A DNA stretch of 64,000 nt from Mobiluncus porci (GTDB lineage: Bacteria; Actinomycetota; Actinomycetes; Actinomycetales; Actinomycetaceae). The stretch spans positions 62,001 through 126,000 of the forward strand of contig NZ_VUMY01000004.1 of assembly GCF_009695935.1 (NCBI RefSeq). Direction: 5' to 3'. The notes below the pieces were generated by a model that had not been told where the DNA came from, did not search any database, and saw only the letters and a program-made list of their open reading frames with translations. The position numbers and the translations under genes are program-made. Below, piece after piece: positions 3,204-57,413 of this stretch (positions within the stretch are counted from its first letter, which is position 1; the number at the start of each line of letters is the position of its first letter).

Positions 3204-3234
3204 TTTACCGGTTTGGCCCGTCCCCACCGGTAAA
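3204..3234. repeat. Family D hairpin, copy 1
   Basis: TTTACCGG and CCGGTAAA arms enclose a loop reading TTTGGCCCGTCCCCA. The same loop occurs with different arms at 49988 and 50137. Confidence 0.7.
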
Positions 3235-6166: not shown

Positions 6167-6263
6167 GGTTACCTATCCTATCGAAGCGCTGTTAATTTTG
6201 GGTAAAGTGAGCGTTTGATTTGATTTTTCTTTTATTCAGTAAGGGATAGCCTGCGTTTTATCG

Positions 6264-6338
6264 CAGCCGGCGGGTCGGACCCTTTGGCTTCGTTCCATTC
6301 GGTCACTACGCCAAGAGGTCCGGCCCGCCGGCTACGCC
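6264..6338. repeat. Family B hairpin (GGGTCGGACC type)
   Basis: AGCCGGCGGGTCGGACC pairs with GGTCCGGCCCGCCGGCT around a loop containing a TTCGGTCACTACGCC segment. It lies between the divergent glgP and VIT genes, where a terminator is not expected, so it is better read as a dispersed repeat. Confidence 0.7.
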
Positions 6339-23877: not shown

Positions 23878-25152
23878 GTGGCGACAAAGAAGAAGACTTA
23901 CAAAGGCAAGACGCCGGCGGCAGGGTCAGGCTATCCTTCCTGGTCGCGGGCTCGGCTCGCGCCGGTGGTGCTCTTGCTCGGGCGCCAGGAGGTTTTCGTG
24001 CGCCGCGCGCTGGATTCCCTCAAGGCGCAAGCCTTGGCAAGCGGCGCCGGAGATTTTGGTCCACCAGAGGTGACGGAAATTTCGGCGGGGGAATACGTCG
24101 CGGGAGCGCTGGCCCAGTACCTGTCGCCCTCGCTTTTTGGCGGGGCGCCGCTGGTCATCGCACGCGGGCTCGAGGATGCCAACGCGGGTCTGCTCGATGA
24201 CCTCGTGACTTACGTGACTGGGCTCAGGGACGGTGCGGAGCCTCAGGCGCATTTAATCTTGACCCATGCTGGCGGGGTTCGCGGGAAAAAGGTGCTTGAC
24301 CTCGTCAAACAGCTCGCTGCGGGGGAATCGGCTCAAGGCGGTCGGTCTGCGGGGGATTCAGCAAAGGCAGGCTCCGCGAGTTCAGCAAAGGCAGGCTCCG
24401 CGAGTTCAGCAAAGGCAGGCTCCGCGAGTTCAGCAAAGGCAGGCTCCGCGAGTTCAGCAAAGGCTAGTGGGAAAGACTCTTCGGCCTCGAAGCAACCCTT
24501 GGCGGGGATATATTCCTGCGATGACCTCAAAAAACGCGAAGACAAAGAGAAATTTCTCGCTTCCGAGGCCGCGCGCCTCAAGCGTCCGATTGACCCGGCG
24601 GCCGCCACCGCGCTGGTTGATGCCTTGGGCGAGGAGTTTACCGAACTGGTATCTGTCGCCGACCAGCTCCTGGAAACCGCTGGTGACCTCGATAAACCTT
24701 TGGATGAAGGGGCGGTGAAAGCCTATCTTCGGGGACGGGTGGAAACCACCGGCTTCGATATAGCAGATGCGGCCGTGGCGGGGAATGTGGGCGATGCCTT
24801 AGCGAAACTGCGCCACGCTCGCGCAGTCGGGGTGGAGCCGGTGGCAATCGTCGCCGCCGTGGGAATGAAATTGCGGCAGTTGTTGCAGCTTGCGGCTCCC
24901 CCGCCGGCGCCGCTGGTGGTTGGAGAGGGGCTTTTGGCTGAGGTCAAGCCGATGCCGAGCTGGATGGCGAATAAAATCCGTCCGGCGCTGCGCTATTGGG
25001 ATGACGCGAGGCTCGGCGCTGCCCTCCAGGCCGTTTCAAAAGCCGATGAACAGGTCAAAGGCGCCTCACGAGACCCCGACTATGCCCTGGAGGCGATGGT
25101 TCTCGAGATTTGCCGACGCGCCAGCGCTGGACGGAGACAAAACGCCAGGTGA
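23878..25152 (+). CDS. holA: DNA polymerase III subunit delta
   Basis: Clamp-loader subunit that opens the beta clamp. The N-terminal AAA-like domain begins with PVVLLLGRQEVFVRRALDSL and has GGAPLVIARGLED. The middle has the Lys/Arg FLASEAARLKRPIDPAAATALVDALGEEFTELV region, and the C-terminal helical collar contains FDIADAAVAGNVGDALAKLRHA. At 424 residues it is about 90 longer than usual. The excess is mostly a low-complexity insert (about residues 140-205) made of five 8-residue repeats, SSAKAGSA, coded by tandem family A motifs. The start is GTG. The last 98 bp overlap the end of comEC on the other strand. Confidence 0.93.
   Translation: MATKKKTYKGKTPAAGSGYPSWSRARLAPVVLLLGRQEVFVRRALDSLKAQALASGAGDFGPPEVTEISAGEYVAGALAQYLSPSLFGGAPLVIARGLEDANAGLLDDLVTYVTGLRDGAEPQAHLILTHAGGVRGKKVLDLVKQLAAGESAQGGRSAGDSAKAGSASSAKAGSASSAKAGSASSAKAGSASSAKASGKDSSASKQPLAGIYSCDDLKKREDKEKFLASEAARLKRPIDPAAATALVDALGEEFTELVSVADQLLETAGDLDKPLDEGAVKAYLRGRVETTGFDIADAAVAGNVGDALAKLRHARAVGVEPVAIVAAVGMKLRQLLQLAAPPPAPLVVGEGLLAEVKPMPSWMANKIRPALRYWDDARLGAALQAVSKADEQVKGASRDPDYALEAMVLEICRRASAGRRQNAR
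24357..24466 (+). repeat. Tandem 24-bp repeats in holA, each with a family A motif
   Basis: TTCAGCAAAGGC starts at 24357, 24381, 24405, 24429 and 24453. Each is followed by AGGCTCCGCGAG except the last. Units are near-identical, so the array is recent or kept uniform. It encodes SSAKAGSA repeats. Confidence 0.92.
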
Positions 25153-27070: not shown

Positions 27071-27658
27071 CGCTCCCTCCTGTTTCGCTTTGTGTCGCCT
27101 TTGTGCGCCGGTTATTTAACTTGACAGGCCACTAGGAGCCGCTTGGGGGACGACCGCTCGGCAGCTTGGTGCTTGCAATGCTTCGCATTGCGCGCCGCTT
27201 CCTTGGTCTCGGCAATGCTCGGGCAAGCTCGGCATTGCTCTCGACCTGGGTCGCGGTGGGGTCCCGCTCTGTTTTTCTAAGCAGCAAGTTGCTAAGAAAA
27301 ACTACGAGCACCCGAAGGGAGTGAGGTCGAGCCAAGCTTGTTTGAGATCGAACCGAAAGACCGAGGGTATGCAATCTCGAAGAGATTGCTAATACCCGAA
27401 GGGAGTGAGGTCGAGCCAAGCTTGTTTGAGATCGAACCGAAAGACCGAGGGTATGCAATCTCGAAAAGATTGCTAATACCCACAGGCTGCCTACGCGAAC
27501 GTCCCTCACGCGCGGCTTCGACAACCGCGCAAACCAGAACCAAGCTCGACGCTACCAAATGACTGATTATCTCGAGCGAGAGATTGTGCACTCGCCGACC
27601 GGAACTTGAATGAAAGATTAACGGACAAGTCGATAACAGGCATGAACCCGATGTCACC
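27071..27658. other. Long gap between comEA and comEC filled with repeats
   Basis: No conserved gene is visible in 588 bp. The region holds a palindrome GCAATGCTTCGCATTGC near 27175, a hairpin near 27275-27300 and the 84-bp tandem duplication at 27311-27478. comEA and comEC are usually adjacent, so this looks like an insertion of repetitive DNA. Confidence 0.65.
27311..27478. repeat. Two tandem copies of an 84-bp unit
   Basis: The unit begins CCCGAAGGGAGTGAGGTCGA and ends GATTGCTAATA; copies start at 27311 and 27395 and differ by about one base. Each has a hairpin at its end, GCAATCTC/GAGATTGC, inside a GTAT...AATAC frame. Confidence 0.9.
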
Positions 27659-39192: not shown

Positions 39193-40445
39193 GCAAGACC
39201 GTGCGGTTTGATCCGGATGAAGATGCCAGCGTAGCCAGTGGGGTCGAACCTCTTTGGCGTAATGAGCGCAGCGAATGTAGCCAAAAGGGTGCGACCCCAG
39301 CGTGGCGTAGCGATTCGATTTCTTCGGCTTCGCCGTTGGGTCAGACCCTTCCGACTACGCTCCCTTCAGTCGCTACGCCGGAGAGGTCTGACCCGCCGGC
39401 TTCGCCGTATCCGCGCGTGCGGACCTTCGCGCGGCGCGGAGATCGGATGGGGGACACTCTCGAGCGGACTTTCGAGAAATACAAGCATGCCTATTTGCTG
39501 GATTTGGAGCGCGGCGCCGGCGTGACGATGGTCGCGGAGACGGCGCGGCTCGACCCGCGTTTGGTGTTCGGGCGCGAGGCGCCGCTGATTGTCGAGGTAG
39601 GCTGCGGCAACGGGGAACAGATTGTTCACGCCGCAGCGAACCATCCGGAGAATAACTATCTCGGTTTCGAGGTGTGGCTTCCGGGGATCGCGAAAATCGT
39701 CTCCAGCGCGGTGCGGAACTTCGACGGTTTGCCGAACTTGAAGGTAGCGGACGTGGATGCGCTCCAGGCTTTGCCGATTCTGTTTGCGGATTACTGCGGG
39801 GGAGCGGGTTCAACAAGGGAGTCCCGCTTGATGAATGCCACAGCGGAATCCGGCTGGTCGGGCGGTCTCGGGGAATCAGCCAATCTCGGGGATTCCCGCG
39901 AGATTTCGAGTCCGATCCAGAGCGCTGAGGCTGAGGTCTTAGGCGAGGCAAGTCGCGGAGTCATCAACGAATTGTGGACGTTCTTTGCTGACCCCTGGCC
40001 GAAGCATCGCCACAAGAAACGTCGGCTCGTGGCTCCGGAATTTGCCGGGATTGCCGCGGATTTGCTGGTGGACGGCGGGCTGTGGCGGATGGCGACAGAC
40101 TGGTCCGATTATGCCTGGCAGATGCGCGACGTGATTGAAGCCACGCCCGGATTGGTGAATGTTTACGCAGGCGAGCGGCCCGATCCGGAGGATCCGGAGG
40201 GGATGCGGGGCGGGTTTGCGCCGCGTTTCGAGGGGCGCGTCGTGACGGCTTTTGAGCGGCGGGCCGGGCGCGAGGGTCGTGAGGTGCGGGATTTGTGCGC
40301 GCGGCGGGTTGTGCGCGGTTCCGAGGAGGAGCGTCAGCAAGCGGCGGCTCTCCGGGTCGTCGAGCGGCTCGGGCGCGAGCGCTTGGAAGAGAAGCCAATC
40401 GACTCCGGATTCGAGCCGCGCGACCCCTGGTATCACGAGGATTAA
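39189..40445 (+). CDS. trmB: tRNA (guanine-46-N7)-methyltransferase with repeat-coded insertions
   Basis: Methylates G46 of tRNA with SAM. The conserved core has [30 protein letters not shown] (SAM site), the [13 protein letters not shown] signature and the terminal SGFEPRDPW-like motif (the catalytic-domain end). At 418 residues it is about 150 longer than usual. Residues about 15-73 are coded by a complete double family B element (177 bp, exactly 59 codons), and about 30 residues near 205-240 are coded by two opposed family A motifs and neighbouring repeats. Both inserts keep the frame. The start overlaps the lepA stop. Confidence 0.9.
39230..39406. repeat. Double family B element inside trmB
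   Basis: GTAGCCAGTGGGGTCGAACC with GGTGCGACCCCAGCGTGGC, then GGGTCAGACCC with GGTCTGACCCGCCGGC. The 177 bp are in frame and encode an N-terminal extension. Confidence 0.8.
39806..39840. repeat. Opposed pair of family A motifs inside trmB
   Basis: GGGTTCAACAAGGGAGTC is followed at once by CCCGCTTGATGAATGCC, an inverted arrangement within 35 bp. Confidence 0.75.
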
Positions 40446-40447
40446 GC

Positions 40448-41968
40448 GTGAGCGGAGCTGACGGGGGCAGGAGCGGAGCCGCTGGGGTCAGACCTCTGGC
40501 ACGCGGTGGCATCGGCGCAGCCGAAAGAGCCACCGCGTTACTGGCGGAGGCGTTAAAAACAGCGGAGCTGTTTAGCCGAAGCTCCGATAACGGCGCTTGC
40601 GCCGTACCCGAAGGGAACGCAGCCAAAGGGTCTGACCCGCCGGCTGCGCCTGCGTCGTTGTCCGCTTATGTCCATGTGCCTTACTGTTTGCAGCGCTGCG
40701 GGTATTGCGATTTCAACACCTACGCGAATCTCTCGCTTGGTCCCGGGGTGGACGGATATGCCGATGCCCTAACCCAAGAGATCAAAATGAGTCATGGGGA
40801 CGTGCTTTTTGACTCATTTTTCGCAAAGCGAATGAGTCAAAAAGCACGTCCCCATGACTCATTAAGCACGGTATTCTTTGGCGGAGGAACGCCGACGATT
40901 TTGCCGGCGAGCGACCTGGTGAAAATCCTCGAAGCGCTTAGGGCAACTTACGGAATCGTAGACGGAGCCGAGGTTACCGCCGAGGCAAACCCGGACACCG
41001 TTGATGCGGGCTACCTTGAAGAACTCGCCCGCGGGGGATTTACCCGCGTGTCTTTCGGGATGCAATCCGCTGCCCCCCACGTCCTCGCAACTCTCGACCG
41101 CACCCACACGCAGGCTCATCTCGAGGCCGCTGTCCGCGCCGCCCATAACCTCGGTCTCGAGACCTCGGTGGACCTCATTTACGGTACGCCCGGGGAGAGC
41201 CTTGACGATTGGAGAGCGTCCCTAGAAGCGGCCTTGAATCTCGGAGTGAAACACATCTCTTGTTACGCGCTCACGATTGAGCCGGGGACTCGGCTTGGGC
41301 TAGCGCTGGCTCGCGGGGAGATTGCGCCGGTTGATCCTGATGACCAGGCGGATAAATACGAGATTGCCGATGCCGTCTTGAGCGCGGCCGGGCTCCAGTG
41401 GTATGAGATTTCCAACTGGGCAGTTCCGGGCCGTGAGTGTCGGCATAATCTCGCCTATTGGCGAAACCGGGATTGGCTCGGTTTCGGCCCCGGTGCGCAT
41501 TCGCATTTGAGGGCGGCTACGTCTCGGTCTGACTCGTCGGCTGCGCCTGTCCCGCTTGGGTCCGTGTCTGACTCTGCGGGGGTTCGGTGGTGGAACGTGA
41601 AATCGCCGGTGAAGTGGCTAGCGGCGGTCAGCAAAGGTGAGCTGCCGGTGGAAGATTCAGAAGTCATAAAGGGGGAAGCGGCCTGGTTGGAGCACGTTTT
41701 GTTGAACATTCGCTTGCGAGAGGGCTTGGATTTGCGAGAGCCGGCTACGCAATCTGGTGACGGTTCCACTTTGTTCCGTTCGCTTAGCTCACTACCCAAA
41801 GCCGTAACCGTCCCCGATTGCTCCGCCAATCTCCGGAAAGCGGCGGAGGCGCTCGCGGGGGAGGGGCTGCTGGACGCGGATGCGCTCACCAGCAACCGCG
41901 GGGTTTTGACTCTCAAGGGGAGACTCTTGGCCGATACGGTGACGCGGCGACTGAGTGAGTTTGATTAA
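40448..41968 (+). CDS. hemW: HemW-type radical SAM heme chaperone with insertions
   Basis: A radical SAM protein of the HemW group, once called coproporphyrinogen oxidase-like, now seen as a heme chaperone. The iron-sulfur site is CLQRCGYCDF (CxxxCxxC), followed by STVFFGGGTPTILP, VTAEANPDTV, RVSFGMQSA and the C-terminal HemN-type domain. The protein (506 aa from the GTG at 40448) is about 100 longer than usual. A family B/hairpin block codes residues about 5-68. A 78-bp palindrome codes 26 residues between the first two motifs, and two more repeat-like tracts lie near 41513-41585 and 41745-41820. The GTG is three bases after the trmB stop. Confidence 0.85.
   Translation: MSGADGGRSGAAGVRPLARGGIGAAERATALLAEALKTAELFSRSSDNGACAVPEGNAAKGSDPPAAPASLSAYVHVPYCLQRCGYCDFNTYANLSLGPGVDGYADALTQEIKMSHGDVLFDSFFAKRMSQKARPHDSLSTVFFGGGTPTILPASDLVKILEALRATYGIVDGAEVTAEANPDTVDAGYLEELARGGFTRVSFGMQSAAPHVLATLDRTHTQAHLEAAVRAAHNLGLETSVDLIYGTPGESLDDWRASLEAALNLGVKHISCYALTIEPGTRLGLALARGEIAPVDPDDQADKYEIADAVLSAAGLQWYEISNWAVPGRECRHNLAYWRNRDWLGFGPGAHSHLRAATSRSDSSAAPVPLGSVSDSAGVRWWNVKSPVKWLAAVSKGELPVEDSEVIKGEAAWLEHVLLNIRLREGLDLREPATQSGDGSTLFRSLSSLPKAVTVPDCSANLRKAAEALAGEGLLDADALTSNRGVLTLKGRLLADTVTRRLSEFD
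40458..40650. repeat. Family B element with hairpin cassettes inside hemW
   Basis: GGGGTCAGACC at the left and GGGTCTGACCCGCCGGC at the right enclose smaller hairpins (GGTGGC/GCCACC, AAACAGC/GCTGTTT, GGCGC/GCGCC). All are in the hemW frame. Confidence 0.75.
40786..40863. repeat. Perfect palindrome with 33-nt arms inside hemW
   Basis: Arms at 40786-40818 and 40831-40863 are exact complements with a 12-nt loop, TTTCGCAAAGCG. The arm begins AATGAGTCATGGGGACGTGC and ends TGACTCATT, so each arm is also partly self-complementary. It keeps the hemW frame. Confidence 0.93.
41513..41585. repeat. Degenerate family B unit inside hemW
   Basis: CGGCTACGTCTCGGTCTGACT followed by CGTCGGCTGCGCC and a later GTCTGACTCTGCGG resembles a decayed family B element in coding sequence. 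Confidence 0.5.
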
Positions 41969-49987: not shown

Positions 49988-50022
49988 TTTTTACCAACGG
50001 GGACGGGCCAATTTGGTAAAAA
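49988..50022. repeat. Family D hairpin, copy 2 (reverse orientation)
   Basis: TTTTTACCAA and TTGGTAAAAA arms enclose a loop that reads TTGGCCCGTCCCCG on the minus strand. Confidence 0.7.
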
Positions 50023-50136
50023 TCTGAGGTCTAGCGATTGGTCTGCGGTTCCGGTCCGGATTCGGACTGGGTTTGGTCTGGCTTAGTTCGGGTAGAAGCG
50101 GAGAGATTTAGAACGGTTCGAAGCGGCGCGTTTCAG

Positions 50137-50168
50137 ATTTACCATTTGGCCCGTCCCCATTGGTAAAT
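50137..50168. repeat. Family D hairpin, copy 3
   Basis: ATTTACCA and TGGTAAAT arms enclose TTTGGCCCGTCCCCAT. It lies 38 bp before the CIRCE element of hrcA. Confidence 0.7.
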
Positions 50169-57126: not shown

Positions 57127-57295
57127 ACGGAGCAAACGTGGGCGCCGCGACAACGGCGGAGGCGTAAGCGACGGCAACGATGTGCCGTCGTAGCCGTAGC
57201 ACCTCTAACGGTGCTCTCGCCGTCAGTCGGAGCGAAAGGGAACCGTCCCCAGTTTGCGTAGCGAAAAGCGAACCCGTCGAGCCGTAATCTGACTC

Positions 57296-57325
57296 GGACA
57301 CTAACTTGACTTCAAGTTAGTGTCC
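57296..57325. repeat. Family C palindrome, copy 3
   Basis: GGACACTAACTTGA and TCAAGTTAGTGTCC are exact complements with a two-base centre. It is the cleanest copy of the family. Confidence 0.85.
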
Positions 57326-57364
57326 ACGACCTAGCGAATCGCCATGAGCTGCGAATCTGCCTAA

Positions 57365-57398
57365 CCGGACACTGTTTTGATGTCAAGTTAGTGTCCGG
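57365..57398. repeat. Family C palindrome, copy 4
   Basis: CCGGACACTGTTTTGA and TCAAGTTAGTGTCCGG are nearly complementary. It ends 16 bp before the era start and may influence era expression. Confidence 0.8.
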
Positions 57399-57413
57399 AT
57401 TAGAATCAAGCCG

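Follow-up and report, generated by a model that had tools for sequence, protein, structure and literature searches.

A palindrome inside hemW of Mobiluncus porci is probably a pair of mobile REP/TIR-type repeats that appears to take the place of a native protein linker

Results

The coding region of hemW, a heme-chaperone gene, lies at positions 40646–41968 on the plus strand of the window (the whole 64,000-nucleotide stretch of Mobiluncus porci DNA analysed here), running from just before the first conserved residues to the stop codon, with an approximate start codon. Its product matched TIGR00539 with 240.9 bits against a cut-off of 205.4, and it is the single hemW in the genome, the remaining own-genome matches being the repeat itself. 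A repeat search of the window found two inverted arms within the gene (40786–40818 and 40831–40863), each of 33 nt, 100% complementary and 12 nt apart; together with translation, this bore out the exact arms, 12-nt loop and in-frame position described in a first-pass annotation. The arms lie within two copies of a 36-nt REP/TIR-type unit. The left copy (40785–40820, plus strand; AAATGAGTCATGGGGACGTGCTTTTTGACTCATTTT) equals the genome consensus exactly, and the right copy (40829–40864, minus strand, inverted) has 3 mismatches to it, all at unit ends, while the loop between the arms (40819–40830; TTTCGCAAAGCG) contains an inner mini-hairpin. The pair contributes 26 in-frame codons (40787–40864, plus strand), encoding MSHGDVLFDSFFAKRMSQKARPHDSL, between CGYCDFNTY and VFFGGGTPT of HemW. 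Directly upstream of hemW, positions 40608–40648 form an inverted 41-nt match (93%) with 6262–6302, which also matches L009 and represents another dispersed repeat.

RNA folding of the 84-nt palindrome stretch gave -62.3 kcal/mol compared to -15.0 for shuffled sequences (sd 3.0; z = -16), and folding of the same stretch as single-stranded DNA gave -43 compared to -7.5 (z = -16). This folding strength far exceeds chance and agrees with the very stable mRNA hairpin that the annotation had proposed. An Rfam search of the whole window returned two tRNAs and nothing else. The intact, single-copy reading frame suggests that the gene tolerates the element. HemW probably remains functional, and the element in hemW is most likely without function. 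Repeat copies wrongly joined inside hemW might be suspected in a draft assembly of 40 contigs that holds a repeated family, but we rejected such an artefact as extremely improbable: at 78 bp the pair is smaller than a typical read, no stop interrupts the reading frame through it, unique hemW sequence borders it on either side, and with its 26 codons the linker regains a normal length.

The 36-nt unit, whose consensus was obtained by reading individual copies, is an imperfect palindrome (AAATGAGTCA-TGGGGACGTGCTTTT-TGACTCATTTT) in which an 11-bp stem closes a 15-nt loop containing GGGGACGTGC. Its 18-nt arm core had 28 matches at ≤3 mismatches in the 2.4-Mb genome (20 of them exact), compared to 2 for the reversed control. 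These 28 matches represent 24 places, comprising 3 intact inverted pairs, 3 in which one partner has decayed (shuffle p = 0 of 500), 1 direct tandem and 17 singles; the copies were examined locus by locus, and a few further, more divergent ones may have escaped. Units at 12 of the 24 places were identical to the consensus. The partner lay on the same side of the unit in every pair, and copy flanks gave no clear target-site consensus besides the unit's own AAA/TTTT ends. Intact inverted pairs were those in hemW, at C15:8864-8915 and at C2:3981-4031. The second of these (G000:C15:8864-8915) is intergenic, is 97% identical to the hemW pair over 77 nt and has a spacer (TTTCGCGAAGCA) nearly the same as the hemW loop. 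The inserted palindromic element that the annotation had suspected was in this way identified as a dispersed palindromic repeat tied to a REP-type transposase. Although perfect arms around a short loop are a possible product of local strand switching, an origin by template switching or inverted duplication inside hemW, with no mobile repeat involved, was rejected as next to impossible given the unit's presence at 23 other places and the matching pair, with nearly the same spacer, in intergenic DNA.

A sibling repeat family of the same architecture, with GGGGACGGGC inside TTTACC/TGGTAAA arms, had 46 genome matches, many of them inverted pairs with very short spacers, and was seen in the window at 49990–50167 and 3204–3225 as well as genome-wide. 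Other repeats in the window were two mutually similar pairs of CGGACACT...AGTGTCCG palindromes (887–1030 and 57288–57404), a 24-bp tandem repeat, TTCAGCAAAGGCAGGCTCCGCGAG (24333–24476), and a tandem duplication of 84 bp with 99% identity (27310–27477).

The genome's only Y1_Tnp gene (G000:C2:100-870) encodes 256 aa. Its product matched Y1_Tnp with 43 bits (cut-off 23), the NCBIfam match to REP_Tyr_transpos was weak (48.6 bits, below the 80-bit cut-off), and both the HUH motif (H60-F61-H62) and Y119 were invariant among relatives. Copies of the unit flank the gene: a shortened unit at its 3' end (L001:77-105) provides its stop codon, and 290–360 nt upstream of its start is an inverted pair that has decayed (L001:1161-1230). 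The nearest transposases found were from Collinsella (35% identity), where most loci have inverted GGGGACAGAC repeats on both sides of the gene; L048 has them on one side, with no upstream copy found. The predicted structure of a Collinsella homologue, folded in place of the M. porci protein and of moderate quality (pLDDT 61), best matched PDB 4er8, which is TnpAREP bound to a REP hairpin (E 2e-4). The M. porci transposase sequence gave no match in the PDB, and its profile search reached 4er8 at E 0.06 only. Its C-terminal stretch aligns with Collinsella, where helix-turn-helix (HTH) matches are weak (E 0.07–0.2), and a domain search of the M. porci protein found no HTH match. No second Y1 transposase to go with the sibling GGGGACGGGC family (46 copies) was found in the genome, so that each repeat need not have an enzyme of its own.

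The 36-nt repeat had no copies in two of three congeners and one isolated 2-mismatch match in the third, and no real copy was found in 100 other family genomes, 6 of which had isolated matches with 1–2 mismatches. A Y1_Tnp gene was present in 3 of 101 family genomes. The exact 29-nt unit had no record in a contig-database search, from which records of this or near genomes may be left out. The annotation had held the insertion to be recent and had named the same palindrome at the same place in all relatives as counter-evidence; in the alignment, the element was absent from hemW of relatives. This absence, and that of the repeat from congeners, support the annotation's inference of an insertion, but the event resembles linker replacement more than the simple addition that had been envisaged. 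Perfect arms alone are no proof of recency, since palindromes can undergo arm-against-arm correction.

Single units lie in frame in four further genes, encoding an aminotransferase (L004), a PfkB-type kinase (L027), an ECF/CbiO-type ABC ATPase (L028) and an M23 peptidase (L024); in-frame copies inside at least five genes, hemW counted, are an unusual feature of the element. On either strand of the unit a single frame is open throughout (MSHGDVLFDSF or MSQKARPHDSF), and the in-gene copies use exactly that frame. At other genes, the unit supplies the stop codon (L005, L006, L018 and L026, the last being dapA) or starts ≤4 nt from a stop codon (L003, L013, L017 and L025). Recruitment of the hemW copy, with its mRNA hairpin or peptide regulating HemW (e.g. 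by slowing ribosomes or stabilising the transcript), would be consistent with the very stable predicted RNA hairpin and with a reading frame that was kept open. However, the same 36-nt unit is also found in unrelated genes and at gene ends, relatives' hemW genes do not have the element, and the single open sense frame of the unit means that in-frame copies are expected from survival alone. We therefore consider recruitment very unlikely.

Linkers were measured between fixed motifs in alignments. The hemW linker is 49 aa with the element and 23 aa without it, compared to 35–84 aa (median 41) in 31 other family rows, among which one congener is counted twice. The lengths with and without the element were 17 and 5 aa in the kinase (relatives 16, 16 and 43), 18 and 6 aa in the aminotransferase (relatives 17, 17 and 43), and 28 and 16 aa in the ABC ATPase (relatives 26 and 32), with small comparison sets for these three genes and distant species (~60–76% protein identity) throughout. 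Thus, in four of four testable genes, the linker was near the relatives' length with the element and shorter than in every relative without it. The element appears to take the place of the native linker rather than lengthening the protein, and the 26 residues, although encoded in frame as the annotation stated, are "extra" only if the element is an addition.

On the evidence of these sequences, either incoming copies would replace host sequence, or insertion and loss would both have occurred, with length kept by selection. A plain insertion of ~78 nt would have lengthened hemW, the loss of native linker being a separate earlier or later event and selection maintaining normal lengths; the element would be the same and the event different. 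We regard this as a serious contender, somewhat short of even odds. Linker length varies widely in the family (35–84 aa) and congeners have long, unrelated hemW linkers, which indicates that gains and losses are common at this spot, and two studies (PMC3733652, PMC6006769) describe intragenic REPs as having inserted into flexible linkers. It sits less well with the length match in all four testable genes, two of which differ from the closest congeners by a single residue (17 vs 16, 18 vs 17), and with near-consensus units that leave little time for later compensating deletions. A length-preserving replacement, in which a single-stranded copy would enter a gap or fork like a recombineering oligonucleotide and swap out a similar length of host sequence, is a specific mechanism that we hold to be unlikely; if true, it would account for the frame-neutral in-gene copies and for copies directly on stop codons.

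The hemW linkers of three congeners (L031, L032 and L033) are long (82–97 aa motif to motif) and consist of unrelated, partly repetitive sequence. The hemW linker may be a general landing site for repeats. A ~170-bp repeat at 39230–39410 of the window (the 5' part of a trmB-like ORF) had 61 genome matches on both strands. A copy related to it lies in frame in the L004/L105 aminotransferase; it is absent in two congeners, and the third has a long unrelated stretch.

Discussion

We propose, with a probability of about 0.88, that the palindrome in hemW consists of two 36-nt REP/TIR-type repeats placed head to head, that these belong to the non-autonomous mobile elements ascribed to Y1 HUH REP-associated tyrosine transposases (RAYT/TIRYT), and that the genome's only Y1 transposase is the likely enzyme. 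The transposase would recognise the folded single strand of the unit or pair through its TGAGTCA/TGACTCA stem and GGGGACGTGC-containing loop, its tyrosine would cut the folded strand, and the cut strand would be joined into another site where single-stranded DNA is exposed, probably a replication fork. At hemW, the pair would have entered the linker of variable length that joins the Fe-S motif to GGGTPT, using the single frame that each strand of the unit keeps open, and native sequence would have been lost during the event or close to it, so that the linker stayed at a normal length. The role of this enzyme in moving the repeat, like the transposition chemistry, is what we infer. Against this proposal, the unit has no GTAG tag such as classical REPs carry, and GGGGACGT agrees with the published TIR motif GGGGWSAS at only 6 of 8 positions. 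Furthermore, with singles at 17 of 24 places and many of them perfect, the pair is not clearly the mobile unit.

This kind of selfish element is already known, and the hemW pair is a fresh example of it; what appears to be new is linker replacement across all four testable genes, hemW included. Of interest are the restriction of the repeat and its transposase to one lineage, how many copies lie in frame, and the apparent linker replacement. A REP/TIR population and its likely transposase are hereby placed in a lineage that seldom has such genes (3 of 101 family genomes), and because both are confined to this genome, a comparison of strains within the species would show cleanly how these elements enter genes. 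The linker-length match makes a testable question of whether such elements insert or replace.

In PMC3733652, TIRtrons are Y1 transposases flanked by repeats that share GGGGWSAS and are sometimes dispersed as singles and dimers, with only some TIRs sharing that motif; most TIRtron transposases belong to subclass 2.1, equivalent to RAYT group 1, and have a C-terminal HTH, according to PMC6006769. The M. porci system resembles TIRtrons/TIRYTs (PMC3733652, PMC6006769) in its Y1 HUH transposase of ~250 aa with a C-terminal extension, in the inverted repeats starting GGGGA- that flank the transposase gene, and in the dispersal of the flanking repeat through the genome as singles and dimers. It differs in that its GGGGACGT departs from GGGGWSAS at two positions, whereas Collinsella GGGGACAG fits, and the C-terminal HTH of subclass 2.1 is suggested only by alignment to Collinsella. 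REPINs, defined in PMC3116915 as RAYT-linked inverted doublets, are similar in their two inverted units, short spacer, long hairpin, RAYT link and decayed doublets, and the inverted hairpin is present here in the hemW, C15:8864 and C2:3981 pairs. In contrast to REPINs, the consensus unit has no GTAG, the spacer is short, the hemW pair is located inside a gene, and singles are more numerous than pairs and often perfect, while singlets of REPINs are described as decayed remnants.

REP dimers in frame in genes, encoding 20–30 residues, and REPs giving neighbouring genes stop codons are likewise reported in PMC3733652, and the copies described here share both properties. The published dimers are of GTAG or CGTC repeats, whereas this is another repeat in another lineage, and the apparent linker replacement is not described for them in the relevant passages of that paper. 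Rickettsia palindromic elements (RPEs) are also palindromic repeats in frame in many genes of one genome, but carry CGTC at one end, and CGTC repeats are without a dedicated transposase (PMC3733652), whereas a transposase with flanking copies is present here. The CGTC REP/RPE pattern has its CGTC at the end, an 8–9 bp stem and a 4–5 nt loop, whereas the M. porci unit has CGTC inside a 15-nt loop on an 11-bp stem. The tag sequences (GTAG, GGGGWSAS) keep the hemW element from strict membership of these classes, and it is best called a TIR/REP-type dimer.
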